In this document: piece after piece, positions 10,969 through 59,444 of the stretch | Position numbering within the stretch: the stretch's first letter is position 1 | Layout of the letters: every line of letters begins with the position of its first letter | NCBI GenBank assembly: GCA_001414485.1 | Contig: LLEY01000088.1 | Coordinates: 1 to 64,000 of the forward strand | DNA from: Calycina herbarum | Lineage: Eukaryota; Ascomycota; Leotiomycetes; Helotiales; Pezizellaceae | Reading direction: 5' to 3' | DNA: 64,000 bases | Made by a program: the position numbers and the translations under genes | The notes under the pieces: generated by a model | Told to the model about the DNA's origin: nothing | Databases searched by the model: none | Seen by the model: the letters and a program-made list of their open reading frames with translations, nothing else

Positions 10969-12686
10969 ATGGCTCCATCAGCTACGAATGGCGACGTCGC
11001 CATGGGAGGCCTTGAGGAGATCAAGGCGCCCCAGGGCGTTGTGCTTCCGCCAAAAGAAATCAAAGGTACGTCGCATCCAGCCTTTTTGTTGACCATCACA
11101 AACATTAGCTAACATCTCCTCAGCTATTCTAGAGAAAACCGCAGGTTACGTTGCGCGAAACGGAATTGTATTCGAAGGTAAATACGCGCCTTTCCTCCAC
11201 TCAAGGACACAGCAGCTAACATACACAGACCGTATCCGTGAGAAAGAAAAACACAACCCCAAATTCTCCTTCCTCAGTCCAAACGATTCATACAATGCAT
11301 ACTACCTATGGCGACTCAGCGAGATTAAGGAAGGAAGAGGAACAGCTGTGGCAGCTGGCCGAGCAGGAGAGGTTGAAGCGGAGGCAGAGAAGCCAAAAGG
11401 TCCACCTGAACCCCCAGAGTTCCAGTTCTCTGCACGAATGCCGAATATCAGCGCGCAAGACTTAGAGGTTGTTCGATTGACGGCATTATTTGTGGCGAAG
11501 AAGGGAAGACAGTTTATGACGGCCCTCTCGCAGAGGGAGACGGGGAATTATCAATTCGACTTTTTACGACCAAATCACAGTTTACACAATTTCTTCCAGA
11601 GATTGATCGACCAATACACCGCACTATTACGGGCCGGTGGCATCGATGGCAAAGGAGGGAAAGCACAGCAGGAGAGAATGAGAGAGTTACAGGCCAATGT
11701 GGACGACAAATTTAACTGTTTGGCCAGGGCGAAGCAACGCGCGGAATGGTTCAAATTTCAAGATGAGCAGAAGCAAAAGAAGGAGGAGGAAGCAGAAAAG
11801 GAGAAATTGTCATACGCGCAAATCGACTGGCATGACTTTGTGGTTGTGGAGACGGTTTTGTTCACAGAAGCTGATGATCAGACGAATCTTCCACCTCCTA
11901 CATCGTTGTCCGAGTTACAATTTGCTTCCCTGGATCAGAAGGCTATGATGTCTATCAATTCCCATAATATGCGAATCGAAGAAGCTATGCCAGAAGATAC
12001 AGACTACTATGGGTCATACCCCCAACAGCCACAGCAAATGGCGCCTCCCCCAGTACCAACACCGCAACCTGCCTATCAAAACTCGCGCGCGAGAAACGCC
12101 GAAGAAGAGGAAGAAGAGGAGCGTATCCAGGAACGAGCTGAAGCACGAAAACGTACACAGGCAGCACAGGCAGGAGCAAAGGGAGGAGCAGCCCCAATGA
12201 AGATCAAGGCGAATTACGTACCAAGAGCAGCAGCCCGTGCCGCCAACAAGCAGAATATGGTGTTGTGTCCAAATTGCAAACAGCAAATGCCAGCCGACGA
12301 GCTGGGAGAGCATATGCGAAGTAAGCATTCACCCCTGAAATTGTACGAACATAACCAGCTAACATTTCCCACCACTAGTCGAACTTCTCGACCCTCGTTG
12401 GAAAGAACAAAAGGCGAAGGCCGACTCGCGTTACGCAACAACCAATTTATCCACCCAGGATGTGGCTAATAACCTTAAGCGGTTGGCATCCCAACGTTCT
12501 GATTTGTTTGATGGCGTCACCGGACAATATGTTTCCGAGGAAGAGGTAGCGAGGAGGAAGAAGGCTGCTACGGGCTATGACGGTACTCCAGTTGAGAAGG
12601 GAGACCGAAGATTGGATATGATGCAAAATGTTAATGTGGAGGAGCAAATCAGGGCCATTCATCAGAAGTTTGGGGATAAGAAATAG
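10969..12686 (+). CDS. SF3A1: Splicing factor 3A subunit 1 (Prp21/Sap114)
   Basis: Exons 10969-11065, 11124-11177, 11229-12319 and 12378-12686 give 516 residues. Two SURP (SWAP) modules are visible: ILEKTAGYVARNGIVFEDRI with KFSFLSPNDSYNAYY, and LTALFVAKKGRQFMTALSQR with FDFLRPNHSLHNFFQRLIDQY. A conserved central stretch follows (IDWHDFVVVETVLF). The zinc-finger-like CPNCKQQMPADELGEHMR and IELLDPRWKEQKAK sit near the C-terminus. The protein is part of the SF3a complex of the U2 snRNP and helps recognise the branch point. The ubiquitin-like domain of animal SF3A1 is absent, as in other fungi. A proline/glutamine-rich and then glutamate-rich linker (YPQQPQQMAPPP, EEEEEEERIQERAEARKR) lies before the zinc finger. 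Intact. Confidence 0.92.
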
Positions 12687-28166: not shown

Positions 28167-29108
28167 TCATCCATAGTTCACGTACACATCTACTCCTGTG
28201 GCGTTCAACTCTCCCTCATCTTCTATATCGACGATCGTGATATTGTCGTGAAGAAGGGTATTGCCTCCACTCTTGCTAGTGTTGATTGTGTCTTCGTCAT
28301 TGTCATTGTCATCAGACTCATACTCAACTTCCTCCTCTTCGTCATCATTCGAACCGAAGGCAAGATGGTGAGCTTTCGCCCTTTTTGGACGGCCAATTAT
28401 GGGTACTGAGGTGACGAGCCCAGCTGAAGAAGTGAACTTGGGGGCAAGTTTCACAATGGAATATGATGCGGCAAATATTTCCTCTCCAGCAACATGCAAC
28501 TCGCGCCTGCACTCGGCCGAAGTGGATGCTTGTGGGTGAATTTCCATATCCACTAGGCCAGGAACGGGCACAGGGAGAGCCGCAGAGACAGGTAAGGCGA
28601 TATTAAAACCTGTACTCTTGCTTCGCCCTTCTTCTATTCTCCACGTGCTCTCAGTCGCTGTGAGGAAGCCGGTGACTAGATAGGCATGCCGTGGCCACAA
28701 TTTCCTCAGTAGCAACCCAACGTCCCGCGCGTAGTGCTCATTCTTCATAAGTTCTTGAAAGTAACGCTCGGGGTTTGGAAGGCTATATTTCTTCACCATT
28801 CTGCTTTCTAGGTCCCTGTTCTGCTCCGTGTTCCGTGTAATGTTTAGTCCGAGCAGCGCAGACAGTTGGAATGAGATTCCTTGTTCCTGTGTGCTGCTGA
28901 CAAACTCTGTGACTCCCGTGCATGAAGTTGGTTCAGGAAGGATAGATGGGATGATGTTGTTGCTATTGTAAGAGGGCACTTGGAGGAGCGAGAATGGGGC
29001 GAAATCTTCCGAGGGCGACGACTTCGAGCTGGTTACACGACACAGAAAGCTTTCGATCTCGGTTGCCAAGAGGGGTTCGTTCAGTAGGAAGAACCTTCGT
29101 TGGTTCAT
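28167..29108 (-). CDS. Gasdermin-like protein, candidate pore-forming partner of the CHAT-NLR
   Basis: A single uninterrupted exon encodes 313 residues from ATG 29108. After FFLLNEPLLATEIESFL (6-22) comes a beta-rich stretch, then VKKYSLPNPERYFQELMK, an amphipathic helix and AYLVTGFLTATES (142-154), followed by GFNIALPVSAALPVPVPG (167-184) and EIFAASYSIVKLAPKF (210-225). The order helix, then Y-L/V-V-T-x-x-x-T, then alternating hydrophobic strands and a second short strand resembles the second half of gasdermin N-terminal domains. Residues 240-313 form a basic patch (GRPKRAKAHH) and a very acidic tail (DDEEEEVEYESDDNDNDED). Known fungal gasdermins are often encoded beside protease genes and are activated by removal of a C-terminal segment. 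The head-to-head CHAT-NLR gene fits that arrangement. This is pattern recognition; a structure-based comparison is needed for proof. Confidence 0.5.
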   Translation of the reverse strand: MNQRRFFLLNEPLLATEIESFLCRVTSSKSSPSEDFAPFSLLQVPSYNSNNIIPSILPEPTSCTGVTEFVSSTQEQGISFQLSALLGLNITRNTEQNRDLESRMVKKYSLPNPERYFQELMKNEHYARDVGLLLRKLWPRHAYLVTGFLTATESTWRIEEGRSKSTGFNIALPVSAALPVPVPGLVDMEIHPQASTSAECRRELHVAGEEIFAASYSIVKLAPKFTSSAGLVTSVPIIGRPKRAKAHHLAFGSNDDEEEEVEYESDDNDNDEDTINTSKSGGNTLLHDNITIVDIEDEGELNATGVDVYVNYG

Positions 29109-29597
29109 CTTAAATTTGACAAAGTGATTCGCTTTTGGCAGTTGGTATATAGGCCGATAGTCGTAAGATGGTAGCTGCGATGCGATATAATAACAATTAT
29201 GTGTTACAAGCGGAGCGAGGGTGACTTGGATGGCAGATCCAAGGTCTACCGTTTAGCTACGGTTCAGGGAGGGATACTTGTAGAAGAAATATAAGGCGCA
29301 GCAGCCCTAGCAGGCCTCAGCCACGACCTCAACTATGGTGCAATGGTGCACCTCCAACATGTAAGCCACCCTGGTCTCGCTCAGGGATCGGGACAGAGCT
29401 GATACTTCCACGAAACAGTTCTCTGCGTGGCATTTGTCCTTATCACCTTGCGCGCGCGCGAATGGCAACCAACAATTAATTACCACTCCGCAGGCTCCCC
29501 GCCCGAGAAACAAATTAAACAGCTGGGGCATAAAAGAATCGTCGTATGGCAATGCTCACGTCTTGGCCGGAAATCATAACAACACTTGATCAACGCG
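29109..29597. promoter_or_regulatory. Divergent promoter between gasdermin-like and CHAT-NLR genes
   Basis: About 490 bp separate the two divergent start codons, suggesting shared control. I see no specific factor site that I can name. Confidence 0.45.
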
Positions 29598-32500
29598 ATG
29601 TCGCATATACAGGTGTTGTTGCAGCTCATCGCCCGGAAGGGCACTACCACGGGATGGGCTGTCGATGTTATCGACAATGGAACGCGGGTGCTGCGTGAAG
29701 TTTCGGTCGCAGACCCATTGACAATGGACCAGACATTGACCTGCCGCTGGTATCTCGAGCAATACGTCCAACGCTCGCCATTTTCGCTGGAGAAGGCAAA
29801 GGAAGCCGAGCTCCTTTTGGCTCGCTACCCCGAGGAGTTGCTCCGCCAATTACCGCTCAGAGAGGTTCTCTTCTCTCGACTTACAAATGTCCAGAACTTC
29901 GATTCGTATCTCGTACACGTCGACATCATTCAAGAGGCCGACGGGACACAAATATCCGAAGATGGCGACGGCAACATCCATCGACTGTTCTGGGAAACTT
30001 TGGAGGACCCAAAGCTATGGAACCACCCGAGATGGGATGTTGTGGTGCAGCGGGCCGTGGGGACCTCCATACGTGATGTACCAGCTGTCTGCGCGACTCT
30101 GGGTTCCTGGGAGCGACCCATTGGAATGACTACTTTCAACGTTCTCTTGGTGATAGCACGGGATACAAGGGAGCAGCCATCCATATATAACGACATTGAT
30201 CCGTTTCTCACGACCGACGCATTGGTGAAGATTCGGAAATGGCTAGGCAGCATGTATAACCCCATCCAGCTCAACCTGGAAATCGTCCGACCTGGGACGT
30301 TCTTCGGATTCAAAGAGCACCTGCGGCGAGCAGAAGAAACACATGGACCGGGCTATTTTCACCTCGTTCATTTTGACATGCACGGCAAAGTTGGCACTCG
30401 GAAAGGCAAAGTCTCCAAATACGGCTTCCTCTACTTCTCCCACCCAACATCTGAGGAGACTTCCCCCCAGCCAGGGCTCAAAGTTGCGAAAGTACTGGAA
30501 CAATATAAGATTCCCCTCGTCGTCTTGAACTCATGCGAATCCGCGAGGGCTTCTTGTGGTGACGATGCAAACATCGCTTCAAGCTTCATAAAGCGCGGCG
30601 TTCAGGGTGTGCTCGGTATGTCGTTCAAAGTCTCCAAAGGAGCGGCCATAATCTTTCTAGAGTCGTTTTATCATGACCTGCTGGTTAACGGTAGTTCATT
30701 TTCTGGAGCCGCTGCTGCTGGTCGTCAAGCGCTCCGCTCGGATCTTACACGCCCGGCAAGATATGGGCTGCAGCGAGACTTGAAAGACAGCTTTGTGGCT
30801 GTTACATATGGGCTTGGTTCGGACGCAGTCATCGTGGAAGCAATGGCAGATGATTTGCGACCTGGCCGGGTTTACAGGTACAGGCGTGAAGAGATGGACA
30901 ATTCTTCTCCATCACCCATCACCCCCAGGCTGTTTGGACGTGACTTCGACCTCTTGCGGCTCGAGAAGCGCCTTTCACGAGGGAACATAATCCATCTATA
31001 CGGAACTGCAGGAGTGGGTAAGACCTCCTTTCTCGACTACGCCGCTTCAGTATGGAAGTCGACGAACTTCGCTGATGCTATTGTTACCATCGAATTCGGC
31101 AGAGATATAATCCTGTCTGCTGAAGAGATACCACTGACTATGGTTCGTCAAATACTGTCCCAGGTCAATTGTCCGAAACATCAATCCCGTCTCTGGACCA
31201 TGCCATCCCGATTGCTTCAGTCATACGACAACAGTATCGTTGAGGAAATCATCAGAGATATCCTGCGTGAGATGGATCTAATCATCATCCTCGACAGCCT
31301 TGATCTTACGTTCGCGCCTTATCCCTCTTTTATGGTCCCTGGATCCGTGGATAAGGATGAGAAATTCGACATTTACCAGAAGATCAAACCATTCTTCCTG
31401 TCGGCCGAAAATGCAAACGGGAACAAAAAATGCCGTATCATATTTACCTCTCGCTGCATAAATATGGACTGGCTGGTGGAGTTCACTGGTCCCAAATATG
31501 AGCTCTCTCCATACGAGCTCAGACGGTTGGGTCTTTCTGACGCTATTGAGCTTTCGCAACATGTGCTTGCAGCTGCTGGCGAGGACATGAAAGAATGGGC
31601 TTATGAGAACATGGACTGGCTGGAGTGTATTATCGAGTTGCTGCAAGGGATACCTTCGGCTCTATTAGATGTTCTGCCCCTGCAGCGGACGCTCAAGATG
31701 CACTGGCCGGACTTCTACACTTATCTGCAGAATGAACTGTTCACATCGCGTGCGGAGCTGGAGCAGGTCGCGCTTAGAACCAGTCGTTTCGCTCAAGAGC
31801 TGCATAGCCTATCAACAGCCTTTCGCTCAGGCCATTTCTTCTTCCTATGTCTCCTGAGCAGCTACTGGTACTTTGGAGTCTCCTTGCGCGAACTCTCTCT
31901 TTTATTTTTCGGTACTGCGGATGAAGCGCTCAAGCGGGATTTCGATTCCCAACCCTGGGCTTTGGCGCTCGTAGAGTTCGCCCAACACATGGGTTATATC
32001 TGTGTCGACCAAAAGAAGACTCTCTTGTGGATCCACCCTCTGCTGACAATAACCGGGCGTGCATATCTATCCGAATTCATCCCAGCTACAAGTAGGGTGA
32101 ACCTAAAGAAATTCTTTTGCGCTACGTTGGAACGTATTTATATCCAATCCGAAGAGGGCGAAACCAACCACGTAGCTCAGAATGGCAATATCCTAACTTG
32201 CATTGAGTATTGCCTCGCAAACGTTCCACCGGCCGGATGGCCGTTGAACCTCCTCAGCATCTACAGTTCCAAGGTCTGCTTCATGTTACCCTTCCCACTG
32301 CGAATTTCACTACAGGAGAAGAAGTTGCAACTTCTGATGAACCTTTCAGAAACTTTCCCGAGACTTGGAGAAAAGGAAAAATATGCATCTTTCTTCTCCG
32401 TTGTCTTATTGCATATCTCGCTCACTAGCGAAAATTACTGCGACCGAATTCTAGAACGTATTGTTGTATTGTCAACCAAAGGACTTGCTTTGATTGAATC

Positions 32501-34511
32501 CCTGGATGAACAGGAAGTCAAAGGTAATGTTGCCTTGTACCGGGCGTGCTTACTCGTGTCACGAATCACTTCATCGCTCAGTCTAGGAAACTATGCAGAA
32601 GCGCAGAATAGTTTGCAGCGCTTGAAGCCGTTGAAGGATGAAGTGATTGGCAAGAGTTCCGTGGCTCCGCTATTATCGAATCTTCACCAGATATTGTTGC
32701 AGTCGGGTGAGATGAGCGGGATCAAATCCATTACCCCCCAACAAGATAAGATGGCTAGGGAAATGATCGCCGCATCCAACATAAGGGGGCTTGATGGGAT
32801 TCGCCTTCTACTTGCTTCCTTTTTCCAGGACCTCGAACAACTTGAAGCAAAACTCCTTCAGGAAGCCACTGGAAGTCCACCATCCAGGACGCCCAAGCGT
32901 AAACCAGAATGGGAAAGCTCCGCAAAACAAACACTCGAGCAGCGTCCGGACATCGATATTGAACAATACAAGGCAGCCATTGGATGGAAACGGCCCAAAC
33001 TTACGCAAGCTATGCTTGTCGAGGCTGATACCTATCGCCAGCACTCCGACACCTTGGAGGAATCTTACGATACTGGGGATTGGATGCGAGCTCTAGAGAC
33101 GCACAAGAGCTTAGTATTTGAAGCGCTGAAGAGCCACCATTTTGAAGAAGCAGAGGAGCATCTCGAGTCTATCAAGACTATTTGCTCCAAGACATCATTC
33201 CGAGGCGAATACGTCGAAAAATTCGACGAGTTTAGAAAAGAACTGCAAAATCTACAAAGACAATATTTGTTTCATCAAGCCTTCTATCCGAGCACGTCAG
33301 GGGACAATTCTGTTAACGTTCACCAAACATCGGACACTTCAGAGCCTTTCAAAATAGATAAAGTGCTACTGGCGAATTCAGTGCTAATCGGAGAAGAATT
33401 CACCATGGCTAATCTAAAAGAGATGAAGAACGTCTCGAAGAAATGGTGGGAATTGTGGCACATATCAAGAAGCCAAGACTCGCGGTTGATTGCGCATATT
33501 TACGAAAATGTTGACAGATACGCGGAGGAAGCAGGACTCCTAGAACAGATACCCAAAATGTATACTTCCCTGAATTTCGAAGGGGCCTCCTCTAACCTAG
33601 ATACATTGGAAGCACTATGCAGAGACGACAGTATGGCACAATACGTCGGAGACTACTCGCCGCTGCAGGGTTTGAGGGACTGTATCGAAGTCGCTGCGAA
33701 GCAACTGTCTCTTTTTGGGGAATGGTCAAAAGCGCTGGAGAAGGACGAATTTGAAACTGCTCGAGCCATTATCGACCAGCTAGATGTCTCACTGCGACCG
33801 TCGTTCTTCGACTGGCTTAGCGATAATGATATTGAGGCGATGCGCAAAGTCGGCGATAGGGAACAGTTGAACTACTTCTCCATTGGACTACACAAAGTAC
33901 CGGCGGCTGAACAACTAGAAGCATATAACAATCTATATCGAGCCTTTCTGGATACCTTTGCTACATATGCCGCAGCTTCGCTCAATCCAGACGAGTTGTT
34001 CGGTCTGAAGTCCCTGGCGCTTGGACAACTAATGCAAGGCTACGCTGGCCAGAAAATATGGGGAACCTGCATATCATTTTGCGAGGAGTACTTAACGCTC
34101 ACACAACCGAGGATAAAGGAGTTTCCCCATATACAGCATGATTGCCTAAACATTAAAGATCAGTGCGAGTGGGAACATGTCCAAGAATCCCTTGGGGTAG
34201 CCGAAATAGATATGGATTTCGAAAGGTGCCTGCGGCTACTTGACGAGATGGAAATGGTCTACCGGCGGCAAAAAGCTACGAGGGGAATATCACGCCAAAC
34301 ATTCTTCATCCTGGGAGACAAGGTAATGCCATTCCTGAAAGGGGCATATAGTGACCGATGTATGGGTTGCGCCCAGTTCGTTCGCAAACGAGCGCCGGTG
34401 CCTTGCCGACTAAAAGGAGGTCGAGGACCGAACCATGATCGGAGCATATTCAGACGGTCGCCTTTTGGTTGCGCGCATCATTGCACGGGGGAGTACTGTT
34501 TTTTTGCTTGA
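29598..34511 (+). CDS. CHAT protease - STAND NTPase (NLR-like) protein
   Basis: One intron-free frame of 1637 residues starts at ATG 29598. Residues about 180-400 form a CHAT (caspase-HetF-associated) peptidase domain: the catalytic histidine lies in HFDMHGKVG (H262) and the cysteine in VVLNSCESARA (C313), the expected His-Cys dyad about 50 residues apart. A STAND NTPase follows with Walker A GTAGVGKTS (469-477), Walker B LIIILDSLD (about 561-569), the IIFTSR motif (about 614) and a winged-helix-like end (WIHPLLTITGRAYL, about 811). The remaining 800 residues are helical, TPR-like in pattern, without a clean repeat. By analogy, ligand binding to the C-terminus would drive oligomerisation and protease activation. 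The neighbouring gasdermin-like protein is the obvious candidate substrate. The last 45 residues are unusually basic and cysteine-rich and may result from a late frameshift. No HET or NACHT-specific motif was seen. Confidence 0.85.
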   Translation: MSHIQVLLQLIARKGTTTGWAVDVIDNGTRVLREVSVADPLTMDQTLTCRWYLEQYVQRSPFSLEKAKEAELLLARYPEELLRQLPLREVLFSRLTNVQNFDSYLVHVDIIQEADGTQISEDGDGNIHRLFWETLEDPKLWNHPRWDVVVQRAVGTSIRDVPAVCATLGSWERPIGMTTFNVLLVIARDTREQPSIYNDIDPFLTTDALVKIRKWLGSMYNPIQLNLEIVRPGTFFGFKEHLRRAEETHGPGYFHLVHFDMHGKVGTRKGKVSKYGFLYFSHPTSEETSPQPGLKVAKVLEQYKIPLVVLNSCESARASCGDDANIASSFIKRGVQGVLGMSFKVSKGAAIIFLESFYHDLLVNGSSFSGAAAAGRQALRSDLTRPARYGLQRDLKDSFVAVTYGLGSDAVIVEAMADDLRPGRVYRYRREEMDNSSPSPITPRLFGRDFDLLRLEKRLSRGNIIHLYGTAGVGKTSFLDYAASVWKSTNFADAIVTIEFGRDIILSAEEIPLTMVRQILSQVNCPKHQSRLWTMPSRLLQSYDNSIVEEIIRDILREMDLIIILDSLDLTFAPYPSFMVPGSVDKDEKFDIYQKIKPFFLSAENANGNKKCRIIFTSRCINMDWLVEFTGPKYELSPYELRRLGLSDAIELSQHVLAAAGEDMKEWAYENMDWLECIIELLQGIPSALLDVLPLQRTLKMHWPDFYTYLQNELFTSRAELEQVALRTSRFAQELHSLSTAFRSGHFFFLCLLSSYWYFGVSLRELSLLFFGTADEALKRDFDSQPWALALVEFAQHMGYICVDQKKTLLWIHPLLTITGRAYLSEFIPATSRVNLKKFFCATLERIYIQSEEGETNHVAQNGNILTCIEYCLANVPPAGWPLNLLSIYSSKVCFMLPFPLRISLQEKKLQLLMNLSETFPRLGEKEKYASFFSVVLLHISLTSENYCDRILERIVVLSTKGLALIESLDEQEVKGNVALYRACLLVSRITSSLSLGNYAEAQNSLQRLKPLKDEVIGKSSVAPLLSNLHQILLQSGEMSGIKSITPQQDKMAREMIAASNIRGLDGIRLLLASFFQDLEQLEAKLLQEATGSPPSRTPKRKPEWESSAKQTLEQRPDIDIEQYKAAIGWKRPKLTQAMLVEADTYRQHSDTLEESYDTGDWMRALETHKSLVFEALKSHHFEEAEEHLESIKTICSKTSFRGEYVEKFDEFRKELQNLQRQYLFHQAFYPSTSGDNSVNVHQTSDTSEPFKIDKVLLANSVLIGEEFTMANLKEMKNVSKKWWELWHISRSQDSRLIAHIYENVDRYAEEAGLLEQIPKMYTSLNFEGASSNLDTLEALCRDDSMAQYVGDYSPLQGLRDCIEVAAKQLSLFGEWSKALEKDEFETARAIIDQLDVSLRPSFFDWLSDNDIEAMRKVGDREQLNYFSIGLHKVPAAEQLEAYNNLYRAFLDTFATYAAASLNPDELFGLKSLALGQLMQGYAGQKIWGTCISFCEEYLTLTQPRIKEFPHIQHDCLNIKDQCEWEHVQESLGVAEIDMDFERCLRLLDEMEMVYRRQKATRGISRQTFFILGDKVMPFLKGAYSDRCMGCAQFVRKRAPVPCRLKGGRGPNHDRSIFRRSPFGCAHHCTGEYCFFA

Positions 34512-39346: not shown

Positions 39347-40834
39347 CTAGTCAAATAGAAAGTAAGATAGGCGCTGCCTCGCCTCCGCAGCATCCCACTC
39401 AACCAAAACTCGATCTTTCGATTCCTCCATTTTCACCTGTATCATCGGCTCCATTGCCGCCCGTTCCTCTTTACTCAGAAGATGGACCCTGGTCTTCCAC
39501 AGTTCTTCCGTAGGGACATCTTTTTCCCGCTCACCAAAGAACATCTCATCCAGATACTTCCAGTATATGGTGTCAAACGCCCAGCTCCTTCTCGCGGCAT
39601 AGTTGAGCCAGAAGCGGCCCGTAGCCCAGCTCTCTCGCATGTACGCCGAGAGTAGCAAGGAACCGGGACTCATGTCTTGCTCCGCCTCTTCGACTGCCAG
39701 AAGCCAGGACTTCAGCCGTCTTTCGTAGACGCTTGCCCAGTCCTCGATGCCTCCATCCCACATCTCGGGAACGTCAAGCAGTAACCACCAGGGCGGGTCT
39801 AAGACGAACTGCGTTGGCCCAGCATAGGCAAATTCCCAGTCGATAGCCCCAAGAACCTGGTCATTATCATTAATGAGAACGTTCGCTGGCCTAAAATCAT
39901 CAGACCAGAGGCGGAAAGAGCCCAAGCCGTCTGGCGCTGGCAACCTCGCACGAGTGTGCTTAGAGCAGGCAGACCATTTATCATCTGAAATCCCAAACTT
40001 TGATAGCCGGCCTTGCTTGGCTAATCTGCGAAATAGTTGGCGAGCGATATATTTGGTCTTGCAGTCATCCTCCGACGATACCATATCGTTATGCTGGAAG
40101 AGGAGAGTTGCCATTTGCATATCAGCCAATATAACGTACCAGTCATCAGCGGTTTGGTATGTAGTGCCTTCAGATGGGAAAATCGATTTGGGGATATTAG
40201 AAAGCTGAACCATATTGATCATGTTAAGTGTGACAGGTCTTCTTACTACACAGTAGGATCCCGGGTTTATCTCGGCGAGAGCTCCGATGTGTGGAAAAGT
40301 AGGCTGTGCAAGCTGTAGTAAACACTGTCCCATTTGGATGTACAGGCTCTTGAGCTTGCTTTCGGATATGTTGGGATGTAAAATGGGCGTCTCGTTAGGA
40401 TCCTCGCGGGGAGCCTCCAGGGCCTGGCCCATGCCTCGTCGAGAGCCAAGGTCTTGGATGATCATAAACGGCCCAATTTCAGGATCCAAACCGTGATAGA
40501 AGACTTTTGGAACTGGAAGTTGAGTTCGTTGGGTGATGCAAGCTGTCGTGGCGGCTTCAGCAAGCGTTTTCTCTTCTGGAAACACAGCCTGGTTTGGGCA
40601 GGGCAAACGAACGAGAAAGCTGTCGGAAGATCCTTCGATTCGAATGGGGTATAACACGTTGAAGCCTCCGATAATTAACGGGGTGACTAAGGTTGCGGAT
40701 TGTCCCAACATCTTCTTGGCAAACGATTCAACGTTGCGGCAGGTAGATGATAATCGGACTTGCTTCAATGCCTCCTCCCAGAGCTCGTCGCTCCGGTCCC
40801 ATGCAAGATTATCGGAGTCCTGTCGGGCTGACAT
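39347..40834 (-). CDS. APH-family phosphotransferase, intact
   Basis: An uninterrupted 495-residue protein starts at ATG 40834 (MSARQDSDNLAW); the frame is open further upstream but without another ATG. It shows the phosphotransferase (aminoglycoside/choline-kinase-like) fold: a nucleotide-binding lobe with GGFNVLYPIRIEG, FLVRLPCP and EAATTACI, the hinge GPFMIIQDLGSR, and the catalytic loop LWSDDFRPANVLINDNDQ with GAIDWEFAYAGP. The catalytic Asp and Asn are retained; the usual histidine before the Asp is replaced by Ser-Asp, as in many fungal members. The natural substrate is unknown. It is the only one of five related genes in the window without a frame break. Confidence 0.85.
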   Translation of the reverse strand: MSARQDSDNLAWDRSDELWEEALKQVRLSSTCRNVESFAKKMLGQSATLVTPLIIGGFNVLYPIRIEGSSDSFLVRLPCPNQAVFPEEKTLAEAATTACITQRTQLPVPKVFYHGLDPEIGPFMIIQDLGSRRGMGQALEAPREDPNETPILHPNISESKLKSLYIQMGQCLLQLAQPTFPHIGALAEINPGSYCVVRRPVTLNMINMVQLSNIPKSIFPSEGTTYQTADDWYVILADMQMATLLFQHNDMVSSEDDCKTKYIARQLFRRLAKQGRLSKFGISDDKWSACSKHTRARLPAPDGLGSFRLWSDDFRPANVLINDNDQVLGAIDWEFAYAGPTQFVLDPPWWLLLDVPEMWDGGIEDWASVYERRLKSWLLAVEEAEQDMSPGSLLLSAYMRESWATGRFWLNYAARRSWAFDTIYWKYLDEMFFGEREKDVPTEELWKTRVHLLSKEERAAMEPMIQVKMEESKDRVLVEWDAAEARQRLSYFLFD

Positions 40835-41286
40835 TCTAAATAGGATTGGAGGTTCTGAATGACAGGAAGAATGAAGCCGGAGAGAACATATAGGGACGCA
40901 ATGTGACGGACGTAGCAAAGGGACGGATACAAGCGATCGCCAGGTATTTGTGGCCTCTGTTAGCCGATATGTATTAGCTCCAAATTCAGTTCCAAGAGGG
41001 TGGCAGGGTTACGAAGCAACTTAACTCCACCTGGGTATGTTTCTTTCGGGCTAGTGCGTAGTCTGACGCGCTTCGTCTTAATCAATATCAACTAATTAAG
41101 AAACTGCTGACGCGGAAGAAGTACAACCTCAGCTAATTCAAACGTTTACTATTAGAGATAATAGTACTATATTTATATTTATAATAAATCGATTAATTTA
41201 TAGTTTAATAATCTGAATTCTAAATAAAAAAGTAATTTACTACTGTCTTAATATAATATTTCTTTTACTATTCTTTTTATCTACTA
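40835..41286. other. Start of AT-rich island
   Basis: Promoter side of the phosphotransferase gene, grading into AT-rich DNA from about 41150. No gene is seen. Confidence 0.4.
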
Positions 41287-43148
41287 ACGTATATGTATAG
41301 CGAATGATACAGATAAGCGAATGATACACCCGAACACACACCCTTAACAAAAATTACAATTATTCCACTACAACGCCTATAATTAATTAAAACTACTCCG
41401 AAATCTCTTCCTCAGATACTTCTCCTACAATATTACAGGTGCGCGTATTATGCCCAGTCTCTCCACAGTTGCCACAGCGCCGTACACGTGATTCTTCTCT
41501 CGGCTTCCGACCACTACTTGTCTTTATTTCTTACATTACCTGCTCTCCAACGTCTCTATTATCCTGTAGGTCCTGCGCTTCTCGTTAGCTAAGTGATCCT
41601 CCTTGCTATAGACGTGTTTTTTTTAGCTCGCCGGCGCTTACTTAGTACTTTATTTACTTGTCGAAGTCTCTAGTTCTCAGCTTTTAATAGTACTAGCTGG
41701 TATATGACTTTTAATACACCCTTTATAAACTGGTCAATAGCCTCGTAAATAGGGGTTAGAGAGCTACTTTAATAATAGGAAATTCGAGTTTTAATAAATA
41801 TAGTCTATAATAAGGCTTTAGTAGGGTTATTTAGTATCTAGGAAACCTAAGGCTAAGCGGAACTTAGAGAGGAGTTTAAAGGCGTTGACGTATTTAGCTT
41901 AAGATTAAGTATAGAAATCACACTTTCTAGGTTAAATAGAAGAATTCTAGCTCCTCGGAACTCTTCTCGAATATTGCTTTCTATTATTATAATATTAAAT
42001 ATAGCGTAGAAGGCAGAAAAGAAGTTATCCTTAGTAATATAAATAATCTAAGCCTATATTATATCTTTAATTTTTCTAACTATATACCTTTTTTAAAGAG
42101 CTAAAACAACTAATATTAAGTAGCTAAAGTATATAAGAAGAATAAGTAGGTATATAAAGAGTAATAATATTATTTTCCTTATAATATTCCTTAAACTCGT
42201 TAGAGTAGTAGCTCTTATAGCCGTCGAAGACTAATAGATAATAACTACTAATAGATCGGGACTTTATATATTTCTTAAAATATTAAATCTAATCTATATC
42301 TTTCTTATTTATTATCTAACTATTTTTAGTAATAGTAATAACCTAGTTAGGTAGAAATCTACAGTTTTAGTACTAAGAGACGAGATGATTTTTCGTAGTA
42401 ATAATTATAAATAGTAGAATATTCCAGTCTTAGATATTAACCCCCTAGATTACTATAACCTATTCTCGATTACTAGGCTATATTCTTTTTACTCTTATAT
42501 GTCCTTCTAAGCTTATAATAACTATCGTAGTTAAGATAACACCTATTATAAACCTAGTCTCGTCAAAGTTATAGATATCTATATCGTAGATTCCGTACTT
42601 CGCTATTATGTTTCGTATAAGCTTAAACCAGCTACGAATAACTTGTAAATCTTCGCACTTAGCTCTCTAGTAGTCGTATTTTCGCTGGAAGCGTGTCTAG
42701 AGTTCTAGGCAGCGCTTGACAAAGTTAGAAGCCTAACGCGTCCCGACGTATAACGCACCGTGTATATTAAGAAGTCGATTTGCTATATCCTCAACTACAG
42801 ATATCCGCGGAGGAAATCCTTTAGAAGCTAGGTCAAGGATATGTTAAATAAGCACTAATTCCTCTAGGTCGGTTATTTTTCGTAAATTAGCTAGAATATC
42901 GCGTCGTATCTATATACTACGCTTTCGTCGACTAAGCTTCTAATAATTATAAGAATAGATTTTTACTATAGCTTAGGCACTTAGCTTTAGGTCCTTTTAT
43001 ATAGTATAGAGAGCTGGAATAATATTCTTTTCGTCGTCTTTCTAGAGTATATTTTATTATAAAGAAATTCCGTATTTAGTAGAGTAGTCGCGTTTAGACG
43101 CTCGGATATATTATTCGCTTATCTATATTATTCGCTATATATATACGT
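41287..43148 (-). mobile_element. Degenerate Fot1/pogo-type DNA transposon with TIRs
   Basis: The termini are inverted copies: ACGTATATGTATAGCGAATG at the left and, on the other strand from 43148, ACGTATATATATAGCGAATA; both continue with GATAAGCGAATRATA. A TA dinucleotide flanks each side (41285-41286 and 43149-43150), the Tc1/mariner-type target duplication. The length, 1862 bp, is usual for Fot1-like elements. On the minus strand, broken frames still show pogo-type transposase pieces: IIAKYGIYDIDIYNFDET in the DDE catalytic region (around 42560-42620) and a C-terminal zinc knuckle CGNCGETGHNTRTC (around 41430-41480). The body is strongly AT-biased with many stops, as expected after RIP. The C-terminal end is the least mutated part. 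Confidence 0.8.
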
Positions 43149-43598
43149 TATTTTTTAAATATAATAGACTTTTATAAGTAGTTATATAATAATTATTTAT
43201 ATCTTTATTAAGAGTTTTATAAATAGTAAATATATTATATTATATAAAGTTATTATATAATTAAATTTTAATTTAAACCTAGTTAACTAGGTATTTTAGA
43301 ATAGTTCTTATATAAACTCTCTATTATATACTTCTAAGTAATATTTATTAGAATTTTAAACCGTCTAATAATAGTTTTTATAATCTTTTTTAAATTATAT
43401 TTACTAAATAAGTTCTTCTCGAGTTTAATAAGCTTATTAATATACTATCTAGCTACGTTAGCTCTTAAGTATTTAGAGAAGACTTTTTAAATAGTCTTCT
43501 CTTTTTTACTTTTTACTATATATAATAATATATCTATAAAAGCGTATATATTAGAATATTATTATATATTTACTTATATTATCTTCTTTGTCTAGATT
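43149..43598. other. AT-rich degraded sequence between elements
   Basis: Very AT-rich, no open frame of note; probably an older transposon ruined by RIP. Confidence 0.4.
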
Positions 43599-43892
43599 TG
43601 TAAGAGTTGGAACCTATAATAGAGGCTCGGGCTATGCTCTCGCTAAGCACTAACCAAAGTCCCTACTTAGCACTGGCTATAACCCCACTGCCAAGCAAGT
43701 CTCTTCTATTCTATACTTTTCTGTTCTATTCTTTTGACATTATATATTTGTTAAGCAGTTCTTGGAATATTCCAGAGGCTCTTCCTCTCTCTATATATAG
43801 AGGAAGAGCTTATATATATATAGTCTTCACGTACTTCTTAATTGAATATTCGAAACCACACCTTTGAGTTGTTCGAGGTCTGGCCTCTCACA
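43599..43892. mobile_element. Candidate solo LTR, not RIP-mutated
   Basis: A 294-bp block with clearly higher GC than its surroundings starts TGTAAGAG and ends CTCTCACA, giving the TG...CA ends and short inverted termini of an LTR. Both sides carry GATT (43595-43598 and 43893-43896), a possible 4-bp target duplication. The block contains a TATATATAG-rich part near 43790-43830 that could be its promoter/TATA region. No primer-binding site or coding region follows, so it would be a solo LTR. The element family is not determined. Confidence 0.5.
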
Positions 43893-45904
43893 GATTAAAT
43901 AGATTAAAGTAGTTTATATTCTTAGCTTAAGATCTATTATAATTATTATTATAAATAAAACCTATAGAGCTTTTATCTTCTACGTTTTTATAATAGTATA
44001 TAATTAGATTATCTATAAGAAGAGAAGAGTTCTCTAAGTAGAAAGACTATTTACTTAAATCTAATAGTATAAATTTCTAATTTCTAAAGAATAACTAAGC
44101 TTATTTACTAAACTTAAATCTTTATATAAGATATCTCTTTCTACTAAACGTATATACTCTCTTATAGTTTCTAAAACGCTTATAATCGTTTATTCTTAGT
44201 AGGTCTAAGCTAAGTAGAGAATCTATTCTTAAACGTATAAATAGAATTACTACTATTAATAATATTTACTAAACGTTCTTAGATATTCTTATCTTCGCTA
44301 TATCTCTACTAATAGATAAGATACTTAAGCTCTTTATTCTCTTTTTAAGAATTTACTATCTTCTTTATTACTTAAAAGGCCTAGCTATAATTACTAATAG
44401 CTACTAGTAGTAGTAGAGAGTTATTATAAAGATTTAAGTCTAGTAAATAAGCTCGGTTATTCTTTAGAAATTAGAATTCGTACTATTAGATTTAGTTAAA
44501 TAGTTCTTCTACTTAGAGAACTCTTCTCTCTTTATAAATAATCTAATTATATACTATAATATATTATCTACTATCTATATACTTATACGATTAATAAAGT
44601 TATTATATTTCTCTTATACTATTTAGCTAATAAAACTATTACTATAATATCTTATTATAATATCTATCTCTATCTTATTTAGCTTCGACGACTTATAAGT
44701 AGTATATAATACTAGCTCTGAATTCTTAAGTAACTTTATTAAATAATATAGTAATAACGTTACTACTAGCTTAGCTAGCCTTTTCTAGATTTATAACGAA
44801 TCGATAAAGCGAGAGTAGAATCGCGAAGTAGATACTTTATAAGAAGACGAATAATTTCAAGCTTAGCTTATCTACTTAATAGCTTAAATTAAACTACTTT
44901 AAACCTAGCTTACTTAAGCTTAAACTACCTAAGCTTAAGCTATTTAAACTTAAGCTTAATCTTAACCTCTATTATAACTATAAGTTATATAATCTCTCTA
45001 CTATATTAATCTCTAACGCTTTAGTAGAAGTACTTATAAGAAGACTAATAACCTTTATATATATCTTATTAATCTTAATATTAAGCTTCGAGTAAATACT
45101 AATTAGTATCTAACTAAGGAAAGTAAGATAAGCTACTTACTTAATACTTTAGAGAGTAAAGTAAGAAACTATATTAACTCTTATATATAAGAAGACAGCT
45201 CTTTTAGACCTGGTTTAACCTTTATATAAGATATATTAGATCTTTTTAAATATATCTTTAGTAATAAGTTTAGTTAAGAAGAAGTCTTTACTAAAATCTA
45301 GAATAAGAAGTAAAGTAGTAAGCTAATAGTAGAATTCTTATCTAACTATCTAGCTTTAGCTACTATCTCTAGCTCTTAAGAATTCGACTATATATACTAA
45401 CTTCTCTTAGCTATCTACTTAACGATTTATAACTAAGTAATATAAGGAATTTATTAATTTCTTAGACTTTGTAGATTAATAAATTTATCTACTAATAAAT
45501 AATTAGAGGTTATATAGTTAATCCTACTTTTTATTATATAAGCGTTTCAACTATAATATACTCGTTATCTTAGGATTTATATACACCTTTATATATAAAT
45601 CAAAATAGTTAGCTTTAAGCCTTTATCTAATTTATCTAAGAGAAGAAGGAATAAAAGAAAGCATCTTTAGAATCGGTGAGAAGGAGATAATATAGAGGTT
45701 ACTGCTGTTTAAGATAATTTAGATAGCTAATTTGCTTAAGATATAGAGTAAGAGATAAGAAGGTTAAAAAGAGTTAGAGAAAGTAAGAAGAGGGCTCTTG
45801 AGATTAGAGAAAAGAGAGTAGAAAAGAGAGGTAAGTGTACTTTAGCTGAGAAAGAATAGGTTTAGAAATAGCTTTACTTTTATTTATTAGTAGGTATATT
45901 TATT
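43893..45904. other. RIP-like AT-rich repeat relic
   Basis: About 2 kb of AT-rich DNA dominated by TA, CTA and TTA strings, with no readable frame in any of six phases. It is likely a dead retrotransposon. The hAT-like element at 45905 was inserted into or next to it. Confidence 0.45.
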
Positions 45905-46689
45905 CAGTATAAGAATAAATTAATAATTATTAATCTGATTAATATAATTAGATTAGATTAGATTATAATTAATAGGTTCCTTAATTAGATTAGATTAATA
46001 GGTTTTGATTAATTACTATATAATTATATATATATATACTAATTAATAATAAAGTAGTTATTCTTAAACTCGGGCTCTTTCTTTCCGTTCTTCTTCTCTT
46101 CTTCCTTCTTCTTTACTCTCTTCTTCTCTTTCTCTGTCTCTTCCTCTATATAGAAGCCCTAGCTCTTTAAGCTAGTAATAGCCTTAAAGGTCTCTTAAGA
46201 GAGTCTATTATATTGCTTTGAAATAATCAGAGCAGCTTAACTAAAGAGCCTCTTATTAGGAGCTAACATAGCAGGTGTTTATAGATACTTCCTAGCTAAT
46301 ATAGAGAGAATAGAATAGTTATGTCTAAGTATTTATAAGGCTTATAAAGCTTATAAAGCTTAATATTAGTAATTATATATATTTATTATTATATAATTAA
46401 TAGCTAATTAATTAAGGCTTAAAATAAAGAAGTTACGTTGTAAAAAGACTGCTTAGGAGGTCTCGCTTAAGCTCCCGGAGCGACGGAAGGCCACTCCGAC
46501 GCCACCCCGAGCATCCGACCCGTGCTCCGATGCCCCCGGGCCGGTCACGTGCCACATTAATCAATTAATCAATTATTAATCTGATTAACGTAATTAGATT
46601 AGATTAGATTATGATTAACGACTAAAAACCGTTGATTAGATTAGGTTAATAGCTATTAATCTAATCTAATCTAATCATTACTTTCGCTG
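45905..46689 (-). mobile_element. hAT element with transposase relic and GATTA subterminal repeats
   Basis: The ends are CAGTATAAGAATAAATTAAT at 45905 and, reading inward from 46689, CAGCGAAAGTAATGATTAG. The flanking octamers are TATTTATT (45897-45904) and CATTTATT (46690-46697), an 8-bp target duplication with one C-to-T change. Both ends carry runs of GATTA/TAATC. Around 46201-46318 the minus strand still shows a hAT dimerisation motif: ILARKYL, then TPAM.APNKRLFS and ALIISKQYNRL, interrupted by stops. A GC-rich block near the right end (CGCTTAAGCTCCCGGAGC, GCCACTCCGAC) matches the element at 13690-14270. At 785 bp it is an internally deleted copy. Confidence 0.82.
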
Positions 46690-56939: not shown

Positions 56940-59444
56940 CTATTCCTCGTCGTCATCCTCGTCGTCATCGTCATCCTCGTCCGCGTCCTCGCCATCATCG
57001 CTAGCACTGACAACTCGAATGGATTTGCTGGCATTTCGAGATGGTGAGCCCTGGTCGGCAATATATGCACCTCTGGCAAGGCTCTTCTTCACCGATCGCT
57101 TTCCAACGGAAGACATCTTTTCAGGTGTACCTAGGTTGCTCTCGCTCTCGGTAGCGGTAGCGACCACTGTTAGGCCTGAGTTCCATGAAGAACCTTTGGC
57201 TTTACCATAAGTTCTCAGAGAGCTCGTCTTCATGGTCTTCTTGGTTGCTGGGGATTGTGGGCGACTGACAGCTTGGCGAGCATTGAGGATTTGGGTGGAG
57301 GCCCTTCGTCTGACAGCTTTCACGGCGCCTTTGACTGCCATCATACTTGCCGAAGATGCAGATCGTTTGAGTCCTTTGTGAGCCTTGATGATTCTCTTCT
57401 TTGGGCTTCGAGTATCCTCGGTATCTTCTCCATCAGCACCCAAGATCTCTTTAAGCTTACGCTTACCGGCTTTGACACCGGCCTTGAAAGCATCTTTGAT
57501 GGTCTCCTTGACAGGTTTCGGGTCCTTTGGCTTAGGTCCAAGTACACCACGGCAATTTTCGCTGCCACATCTGCATTCTTGGACATTTTTGGCGGAAAAT
57601 GGATCGAAGTTGTAGTCGTAAGTCAATTCATCTCCAGTCATGATGGGATTGTCTCCTGCAAATAGAGCCATTCGGGGCTTGCCTGCAACGAGCCATTTGA
57701 CCATTTTGCAATTTGGCTTGCAGGAATGATTGATGAATCGAGCAATGCTGCCTTTGGTGCCATCAAGAATCATGTTTTGGTCGAAAGACATGAGATAGTA
57801 ACACTTGAGAATTGAATTAGTTTGTACTCTTGCAATCAATAAGCATGTGACATACCTCGTTGTTTTTATAATCCTCATTCATACGTCTGTCGCATTCTTC
57901 CTCTGTGATAATCTCCCCGGTGTACTCAACAATGATTTGGTTAGCATCAAAACAGCGATTGCTCCTCACACCATAACCTCGATCAGCAGTTTTGAGAACC
58001 TCGACTCCGACTCTGTACTTTCCACCAGCCTTGCGGCGTTCTGAAAGTTCGGCAAAGGCACGATTACCGCAGTAGTTGCGACCAACCTTGCAATTGGTTT
58101 CATCACACTCGTAAAACATGAGGCGGTTTTGGCAACGTTCATCACACCCATGCTCTCTTGTGCAGACACATTTTGACGAGAAGCTGTCAAACTTTTCAGT
58201 TTTCTTCCATGAAGCAGAAGCGTTACCAATGAAGCGATCTTGAAGATTGAGTTAGTTATGATTAAATTGGCGTGTAAATGTTGGGACTTACTGCTAGATG
58301 TCTTGCGCCATTCGTCTGGTTTTGGTTGCCCTGGTGGCAGTGGGGAGCAGATATCAAATGGTAGCTTGAAATCTCTACCAAGCTCTACCAGTCGTTCTCC
58401 GTGAAACAATGGCATTGGCAGAATTGATCTGGGCTTTTCTTCCGGGGTGTCCGCATTTGAGCTATAAGGCGACTTGTAGACTTTGGGAGGGACCTTAGCA
58501 GGAGCCAACTGACCTGCGTATAATCCTTTGGGAAGCCAGGTTTTATCTCTCTTGCCTACAATCGTCTTCGGTTCCGGTGGTGCAGGCTCCTCTACTTTGG
58601 CAGCTGGTTGCTTTACAGCGGCAACTTCCGCGGCCTTCTTCTTCTTGTTTGGTCGCTCTTCTGTAACCAATTTGCCGTTGCTCCAAACCTCGTGAATCAC
58701 TGGCTTGGTCTCTATCTTTGCGAATTCGGGAGTGTCTTGTAATTTCCTAAGCTCACGGGGGACCTTTGCGAGGTTTGAGAAGCTATCGTCCAACGTTTGC
58801 CGACTGCGCTTCCCCAACACACTGATTTTTTTGACCACCTTGTCGCTTGTAGAGAGCATCGATTTGCGCCGACTGATGAATGGCTTCACGGGGATCTTTT
58901 TCGCGTCTCCGGCCAGACCAATCTGGCTCTTGGACCTAGAGAGCTTCGCGACAGACCAATCAGGGTTGAAGGCCTCGTCGGCAGCCTGTATGAGTTGGTC
59001 TGCCTCTACCAATGTGTCGCCAGAGATAGTTCGTCGGCGCGGCTTGGGCGGGAGAGGAGTGCCATCTGGATTCTTGAGATATTTCCTGGGTGCATGAATA
59101 GCTGTGCCGCTCAAGACCTTTACGTTGTATGTGCCGACACTGGCGCGAGCGCGACGACTGCGACCGGAGGGTTCGACGTGAGGATCTGGTGTCGCTGATG
59201 CTGGAGAGGGCGCAACGGCTGCTGCTGTCGTTTCGAGCTTGAGGGAGGTAGAGGAGATGCTCGCTCCATCGCCAATGCTGGTGGGAGGTGTCGAGGACGA
59301 GGAGGATGATTGCGGGTCGGAAGCGACATCGACGTCGACGGTGAGAGTGCTAACGATGGAGGCTGCTGGAGACGCACGCGTCTCAGCAGGAGGAGTAGGC
59401 TCTAAAGGAGTCGCAGGCACTCTTTCCAGAAGTGCAGAAAACAT
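56940..59444 (-). CDS. ash1: Ash1-like histone H3K36 methyltransferase
   Basis: Exons 59444-58292, 58238-57856 and 57803-56940 encode 799 residues, joined by introns of 53 and 52 nt. The first 380 residues are low-complexity and basic with no domain recognised. Exon 2 holds an AWS domain (CVCTREHGCDERCQNRLMFY, CNVGRNYCGN-like) and the start of SET (YGVRSNRCFDANQIIVEYTG). Exon 3 continues SET with FINHSCKPNC and DELTYDYNFDPF, then the post-SET cysteines CRCGSENCRG. A lysine/serine-rich tail ends in a run of Asp/Glu. There is no WW or SRI domain, which argues for Ash1 rather than Set2. In Neurospora and Fusarium, Ash1 marks poorly transcribed, often AT-rich or accessory, chromatin. The gene is intact. 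Confidence 0.85.

Follow-up and report, generated by a model that had tools for sequence, protein, structure and literature searches.

Gasdermin genes lying beside genes for CHAT-bearing NLR proteins have already been reported in fungi (Clavé et al. 2022, cited in excerpts of PMC9815663, PMC10197012 and PMC12881547). The pair described here, found in a 64,000-nucleotide stretch of the Calycina herbarum genome (hereafter 'the window'), has the same composition, that is, a gasdermin gene (gene A) next to a gene for an NLR whose N-terminal domain is a CHAT protease (gene B), and no difference in kind was found from the clusters as those excerpts describe them. The novelty implied by the initial annotation of the locus therefore does not hold. 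The same excerpts of the three accounts do not mention the linker motif of A or a CHAT subfamily of the B type.

Several other systems can be compared, likewise from excerpts. In Podospora anserina, HET-Q1 is a protease-controlled gasdermin with a C-terminal segment of about 5 kDa (PMC12881547), against about 7 kDa in A. Its protease, HET-Q2, belongs to the subtilisins, and the two genes occur as idiomorphs of a single locus, whereas A and B are present together and gene B encodes a CHAT protease, not a subtilisin (S8) partner. In a second P. anserina cluster a TPR-bearing CHAT protease activates the adjoining gasdermin, as is predicted for B; STAND is not mentioned for that protease in the excerpt (PMC12881547), unlike what is seen in B, and a CHAT-TPR pair of this kind occurs elsewhere in the present genome (locus C144). 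RCD-1 of Neurospora crassa has no inhibitory C-terminal domain and acts by allelic co-expression (PMC11760362), whereas A has a candidate inhibitory tail. The hetB gene of Aspergillus fumigatus, likened to B by its CHAT domain, acts in heterokaryon incompatibility; no gasdermin partner is shown for it in the excerpt (PMC11138114). Bacterial gasdermins are also paired with genes for caspase-like proteases and have a short C-terminal segment; they are cut after Leu or Arg (PMC9612521), with removal of about 20 residues, compared to about 64 predicted for A.

Organization of the gene pair

Gene A (28167..29108, minus strand) is a single complete reading frame of 313 aa for a fungal gasdermin-like protein, and gene B (29598..34511, plus strand) encodes a CHAT-STAND-helical protein (NLR) of 1637 aa. 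Both frames lie where the initial annotation had placed them, in the head-to-head arrangement that it described. The start codons are 489 bp apart (29109..29597), a gap presumed to be a shared divergent promoter. Residues of B are numbered from the ATG at 29598; the first-listed start of its frame is a TTG at 29586, four codons upstream. The further claim that the pair sits in a transposon-rich accessory region is weak: one strongly RIP-like AT-rich island is present (42001-46000), but so are a PRP21-type splicing factor and a SET-domain gene in the same window.

The three motifs on which the gasdermin-like reading of A had been based (SYSIVKL among them) are present, and the fold search, specified beforehand as a check on this reading, found a gasdermin fold in the predicted structure. 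The model aligns to RCD-1 over residues 2..252 and to a bacterial gasdermin over residues 2..243, and the pore-forming domain was delimited from the structure-model alignment as residues 1-243 (28380..29108, minus strand). Sequence-only routes failed. Pfam returned nothing credible for A alone or across the 57 members of alignment A1 (57 of 64 A-family proteins; P0002, P0044, P0045, P0046, P0048, P0051 and P0053 left out), and no gasdermin came up when A, A1 and two paralogues were run against PDB sequences by phmmer and by profile search; profile A1 did not match RCD-1 there, though RCD-1 chains occur in the structure library. The identity of A is thus decided by structure comparison alone, and by its model gene A is a protein with the gasdermin pore-domain fold. 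The family counts at least 73 rows over two relative searches, the window's own protein included. Profile A1 also matches a gene beside a subtilisin gene at another locus of this genome, C40 (25.1 bits versus 4.8 for the best shuffle).

The CHAT protease domain of B (residues 4-416; 29607..30845, plus strand) scores 42.7 bits with Pfam CHAT (cut-off 24), and its fold is backed by the structure model, in which the N-terminal part is of the caspase/separase type. The catalytic dyad is found at His262 (30381..30383, plus strand) and Cys313 (30534..30536, plus strand), as first annotated. In alignment A2 (gene B with 64 of 82 B-family proteins, rows P0129-P0146 being excluded), the column of His262 holds His in 64 of the 64 rows having a residue, B counted, with 1 of 65 rows gapped, and that of Cys313 holds Cys in 65 of 65, B counted. 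The predicted P-loop STAND (NACHT/NB-ARC-like) module covers about residues 440-850 (30915..32147, plus strand), with the Walker A motif GTAGVGKT at residues 469-476 (31002..31025, plus strand), whose Gly474 and Lys475 are kept in all 65 rows of A2. Here too the structure model backs the annotated fold, residues 440-850 matching a plant NLR; Pfam NACHT-type matches of B itself fall below their cut-offs, and several B relatives carry such matches. The remainder, about residues 851-1637 (32148..34508, plus strand), is the presumed sensor. It is all-helical in the structure model, which extends to residue 1197, and its profile matches designed helical proteins; Pfam reported no repeat family for B (WD40, ANK or TPR being expected in fungal NLRs). 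The modelled folds thus support for gene B a CHAT effector at the N terminus and, after it, a P-loop STAND NTPase, which is an NLR-type architecture. A relative in Cadophora sp. MPI-SDFR-AT-0126 (P0065) has 1638 aa and 87% identity over 100% of the query.

Pairing in other fungi and at other loci

As the two-gene reading had anticipated, relatives of A and B are adjacent in other species. Adjacency was read from locus tags and equal contig size, each row showing the size of the longest contig in its 90% cluster, and pairs were counted by eye: five consist of consecutive locus tags, and 13 A/B pairs, those five included, lie on equal-sized contigs. The consecutive pairs span Leotiomycetes, Sordariomycetes, Eurotiomycetes and Geoglossomycetes. 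Among the matches listed, 12 of the 37 A-family rows on contigs of at least 10 kb have a B-family row on an equal-sized contig, a figure bounded by the size filter, the listing of best candidates and the 90% clustering, so that the absence of a partner in other rows cannot be read from it; among the remaining 25 is the protein of the window itself, for which the partner B was seen directly. Two of the relative searches scored the best 7,994 and 7,997 candidates sharing most words. The trees of A and B, built for 12 of the 14 pairs with the window's own counted, are congruent; this test left out P0044/P0070, which are partial, and the Geoglossum pair, found afterwards. Since the relatives recur as neighbours both in other fungi and at other contigs of this genome, we conclude that the adjacency exceeds chance.

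Five gasdermin-like genes were found in this genome, A included, and all five adjoin a protease gene. Those at C129, C41 and C40 came from sequence searches; that at C144 was spotted by eye, its position next to a CHAT gene having drawn attention to it. The protease is of the S8 (subtilisin) type at C40 and a CHAT-TPR protein at C144. At C129 and C41 it is a CHAT protein of the B subfamily, with a STAND remnant devoid of a P-loop at C129 and no STAND recognised in the frame tested at C41; at both loci the other flank of the gasdermin is occupied by a separate gene that combines STAND and TPR parts, and a hydrolase-like start was recognised in the one at C129. The first genome search detected the gasdermin at C41 only weakly, in two pieces with E = 0.019 and 0.66, and that at C144 gave E = 0.147 against A directly; both assignments rest on the A-family profile.

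Seven CHAT loci were seen in this genome. Around three of them (C8, C360 and C365), no A-like frame was found in the surrounding 16-18 kb each (frames of at least 40 aa; A profile; best reversed control 8.8 bits), so a CHAT gene here does not always partner a gasdermin. The CHAT match at C365 resembles a separase. The Pfam CHAT genome search missed the C41 CHAT gene, whose Cys piece scored 19.7 bits, below the cut-off of 24; genome counts are therefore lower bounds. For the CHAT genes at C129 and C41, the pieces that bear the His had no Pfam match and were recognised by the B-family profile only.

A conserved linker and an acidic tail in gene A

At the edge of the pore domain lies a conserved linker, RPKRAKAHHLAFG (residues 240-252; 28353..28391, minus strand), followed by an acidic tail (residues 253-313; 28170..28352, minus strand). 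The linker core, PKRAKAHHLA, is near-invariant, with a mean conservation of 0.84 over residues 241-250 compared to 0.57 over residues 1-239 (57 sequences); it is one of the family's two best-conserved blocks of ten residues, in at least four Ascomycota classes, and yet adjoins a disordered tail. Among the 57 sequences, Ala244 and Leu249 are kept in 55, Ala250 in 53, and Lys242, Lys245 and His248 in 52 each, while position 243 is Arg in 47, with Lys, Leu, Gln and Ile among the remainder. The linker is a candidate region for CHAT cleavage, with Leu249 as the suggested P1 residue, after which the segment has a mass of about 7 kDa. Residues 260-313 are disordered in the structure model (pLDDT < 50), and all 57 sequences carry a negative net charge from residue 255 onward (median -16). 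A short C-terminal segment beyond the pore domain, which is a trait of fungal gasdermins, is thus present, and its features make the acidic tail a candidate inhibitor of the pore domain. None of the other four gasdermins of the genome has the motif intact, and a loosely similar stretch, PRKAKPKLM, at C41 is all that they show; the linker motif is therefore a trait of the A subfamily, and could have another purpose.

A predicted two-gene cell-death switch

Computed here are a gasdermin fold, a CHAT fold with a conserved dyad, a STAND fold with a P-loop, a conserved pairing, and a conserved linker with an acidic tail. The folds of both proteins and the neighbouring relatives support the cell-death switch proposed in the initial annotation, and we think it probable that A and B form a self-contained, pyroptosis-like switch in which the protease of B cuts A in the linker and frees the pore domain. 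The helical C-terminal region of B would sense a trigger; the STAND module would then bind nucleotide and assemble, and the CHAT domains would become active. Cleavage of A would fall within residues 241-250, most plausibly after Leu249, and would take off the disordered, strongly acidic 7-kDa tail. By analogy with RCD-1 and HET-Q1, the freed and mildly basic pore domain may oligomerise in acidic-lipid membranes and kill the cell. Allorecognition is one possible use of the pair.

Other explanations concern the identity of A, the pairing and the mode of activation. Relatives of MACPF and of cholesterol-dependent cytolysins do turn up in the same fold searches, as expected of distantly similar pore folds, but they rank lower than gasdermins, and it is very improbable that A is a pore former of that or another kind. 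That chance or ordinary synteny placed A next to B is still harder to credit: congruent trees would equally follow from shared species history, and most A rows on long contigs are without a partner among the matches listed, but the consecutive pairs occur in four classes and the arrangement is repeated within one genome, where other contigs carry it with proteins about 25% identical. Proteolysis need not be the sole route to activation, since RCD-1, which requires two allelic forms, is switched without an inhibitory domain, and PMC11760362 reports that such gasdermins can be activated independently of cleavage. A might likewise act uncut, with B guarding or regulating it by binding, or cleaving something else, and the pair being kept together for inheritance; cleavage of A by B is, after all, a prediction. 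We judge this quite unlikely, because A has a separate acidic tail beyond a near-invariant linker, the dyad of B is kept in every aligned row with residues there, and every gasdermin-like gene found in this genome adjoins a protease gene (the one at C144 having been found by looking there).

Cleavage of A by B being the preferred reading, a further alternative touches its detail and not the whole: the linker might be a lipid-binding, pore-stabilising or nuclear-targeting element, with B cutting elsewhere in the tail. The linker is basic, bears a partial resemblance to the consensus of a short nuclear import signal, and lies on the border of the folded domain, in a part of the model that has middling confidence. 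Position 243, which that consensus requires, is more variable than Lys242, Ala244, Lys245, His248, Leu249 and Ala250, which disfavours a role in import. Cutting after Leu or Arg by the caspase-like proteases of bacteria also favours the linker as cut site, and we regard the alternative as unlikely, if less so than activation without cleavage.

The loci of this genome may also be brought under one scheme, which we offer as possible but doubtful. An ancient CHAT-gasdermin cassette would exist in a fused form, with NTPase and protease in one protein as in the window, and in a split form, as at C129 and C41. The inhibitor in all five gasdermins would be an acidic tail of unrelated sequence, with no folded domain, masking the basic pore domain by charge, and the CHAT proteases would release it at a family-specific linker, of which PKRAKAHHLA would be one. 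If true, sensing could be separated from cutting, in the manner of animal inflammasomes.

The linker motif, the acidic tails and the distinction between fused and split cassettes are possibly new. The pair adds a well-resolved case of a pyroptosis pathway in contracted form, a single protein uniting the receptor and the caspase-like protease, with the gasdermin adjoining. The linker of A provides a concrete candidate cleavage site and, if it is the cut site, would open the specificity of fungal CHAT proteases to direct testing. Inhibition by charge, should the acidic tail work in that way, would explain how microbial gasdermins can be restrained by short, dissimilar tails.

A divergent gasdermin-like and CHAT-NLR gene pair

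The window sits within a 261-kb contig of a genome totaling 68.8 Mb. Gene A, the gasdermin-like gene, is a single open frame of 313 amino acids on the minus strand (28167-29108). Gene B, which encodes an NLR with an N-terminal CHAT protease, a STAND module and a C-terminal helical region, runs on the plus strand from an ATG at 29598 to a stop at 34511 (1637 amino acids). The two are divergent, with 489 bp between start codons, which confirms the head-to-head arrangement proposed in the initial annotation. The gene model of B is supported by a relative in Cadophora sp. MPI-SDFR-AT-0126, since the match covers the whole query at near-equal size (1638 amino acids, 87% identity). Its relatives mark the genome as fungal, and this close match may point to a Helotiales-like host. 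The reading of the pair as a gasdermin with an NLR-type CHAT protease is supported.

The surroundings had been described as accessory and transposon-rich. An AT-rich island at 42001-46000 (GC 0.24-0.28), with a strong RIP-type dinucleotide bias (TpA/ApT 1.46-1.64), is probably a mutated transposon block. A PRP21-type splicing factor gene (11093-12466, plus strand) and a SET-domain gene (56943-57878, minus strand) make it unlikely that all of the window is accessory. The window also holds two APH-family phosphotransferase genes (2059-2703, plus strand, Pfam 32.0 bits; 39350-41008, minus strand, 30.6 bits).

The initial annotation had proposed as a check whether homologues of the two genes are neighbors elsewhere. 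Such adjacency was found: relatives of A and B carry consecutive locus tags in Cadophora malorum (IFR04_012657/012658), Fusarium proliferatum (FPRO06_13103/13104), F. tjaetaba (FTJAE_3611/3612), Aspergillus wentii (MW887_006712/006711) and Geoglossum umbratile (M1839_003060/003061), that is, in Leotiomycetes, Sordariomycetes, Eurotiomycetes and Geoglossomycetes. With these five, 13 A/B pairs lie on contigs of identical size in both lists of relatives. Contigs of at least 10 kb carry 37 of the A rows; counted by eye, at least 12 of these have a B partner on a contig of the same size, a lower bound because relatives were length-filtered, clustered and restricted to the best candidates. The window's own A is among the 25 rows without a listed B, yet its partner is seen directly. 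The B relative of G. umbratile (M1839_003061, our protein P0105), whose tag adjoins that of the A relative, is a 1939-residue protein with an extra protein-kinase domain.

Trees of A and B were congruent over 12 pairs (r 0.78; none of 9,999 permutations was as high). This agreement fits joint inheritance, but also a shared species history.

Protease neighbors of the other gasdermin-like genes

Four more gasdermin-like genes were found in this genome. Those on contigs C129, C41 (weak at first, E 0.019) and C40 came from sequence searches, while the one on C144 was spotted by eye beside a CHAT gene. Against a profile built from the A family, the C129 piece scored 94.3 bits, the C41 pieces 48.9 and 16.6, the C144 piece 42.3 and the C40 piece 25.1 (best of 1,000 shuffles, 4.8). 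Over 2,224 frames from 16 fetched loci and the window, the profile matched only gene A and these four genes, the best reversed control reaching 8.8 bits.

A protease gene adjoins all five gasdermin-like genes found, gene A included, since a CHAT gene is present at the window, C129, C41 and C144 and a subtilisin gene at C40; the C144 case carries an ascertainment bias, and genome counts are lower bounds, because only the best candidates were scored and the CHAT search overlooked C41. The gasdermin-like gene is head-to-head with a B-type CHAT gene on C129 (L004:1900-8352) and on C41 (L025:2-9999 and L026:108-1617), where it apparently contains an intron. It is head-to-head with a CHAT-TPR gene on C144 (L019:6318-9550), a pair resembling the TPR-CHAT pair of Podospora cited in PMC12881547, and in tandem with a subtilisin (S8) gene carrying a DUF7580 domain on C40 (L030:5825-9558), which is reminiscent of HET-Q2/HET-Q1. 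The converse rule fails: seven CHAT loci were seen, and around three of them (C8, C360 and C365) the A profile found no A-like frame in the 16-18 kb examined.

With 101-122 bits against the profile of B's CHAT subfamily, the CHAT pieces at C129 and C41 fall into that subfamily; C144, the next match, scores only 6.8 bits (best of 900 shuffles, 4.3). In Pfam, the Cys piece of C41 fell below the cut-off and the His pieces of both genes went unrecognized. The region after the C129 CHAT weakly matches B's STAND profile (17.4 bits; best shuffle, 9.0) and has no P-loop, FHGPNYELNQ standing at that position; the later C41 frame tested matched no Pfam family. On the other flank of the gasdermin-like gene, both contigs have separate frames resembling one NLR gene each, with STAND above the cut-off at both and TPR above it at C129 and weak at C41. 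The C129 flank NLR has a hydrolase-like start, barely at the cut-off. At C41 the STAND domain is NB-ARC, alongside TPR, and the gasdermin-like gene is separated from the NLR by a vWA domain and a kinase-like frame. We infer that these arrangements may represent, in split form, what the window encodes as one fused CHAT-STAND protein.

A candidate cleavage linker and an acidic tail

By analogy with HET-Q1 and bacterial gasdermins, B would cut A between the pore domain (residues 1-243) and the tail: HET-Q1 loses about 5 kDa, with the cut likely at F238 (PMC12881547), and in bacterial gasdermins the cut follows a Leu or Arg and removes about 20 C-terminal residues (PMC9612521). The strongest candidate would be residues 241-250 (PKRAKAHHLA), with a mean conservation of 0.84; residues 1-239 average 0.57 and residues 255-313 average 0.37, and among ten-residue blocks only 141-150 exceeds the candidate (0.86). 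Of 57 A-family rows, 55 have Leu249 and 53 have Ala250. A cut between them is computed to leave 27.7 kDa with a pI of 8.4 and to release a tail of 7.0 kDa with a pI of 4.05. The motif was not found intact in the other four gasdermins of the genome, C41 having a loosely similar PRKAKPKLM.

The tail of A is net negative in all 57 rows (median -16), and the remainder of the protein has a median charge of +4 (range -4 to +14). Each of the four further gasdermins likewise has a strongly acidic end (-10 to -14 over the final 50 residues of its open frame), of unrelated sequence. A charge of -10 or less in the last 50 residues was found in 54 of 73 A-family proteins, fragments included, versus 1 of 82 B-family proteins. 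Since these ends are acidic and the pore part is mostly basic, we propose that the tail may act as a charge-based mask over the membrane-binding domain. RCD-1 of Neurospora crassa binds acidic lipids (PMC11760362).

Relation to known systems

The novelty implied for the pair is reduced, and it is not new in kind, because fungal CHAT-NLR/gasdermin clusters are already published. According to a review (PMC10197012), about 80% of fungal gasdermin genes are clustered with protease genes (about 63% S8, 19% CHAT), and dozens of the proteases are CHAT-bearing NLRs or NLR-like proteins; PMC9815663 and PMC12881547 contain similar statements. PMC12881547 also cites a TPR-CHAT protease that activates a gasdermin in P. 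anserina, and hetB of A. fumigatus is a CHAT gene acting in incompatibility (PMC11138114). The window pair is thus a further example of an already known kind. Among the open-licence literature, a scope outside which the original paper on these clusters (Clavé et al. 2022) and its supplement fall, we found no paper on the PKRAKAHHLA linker, and among the titles and abstract openings listed none dealt with acidic tails or segments in fungal gasdermins; the linker motif and the acidic tails are possibly new.

The pair is a clean, well-supported example of the CHAT-NLR/gasdermin kind. There is a hint that the cassette occurs in fused and split forms, and the linker of A offers a directly testable cleavage prediction.
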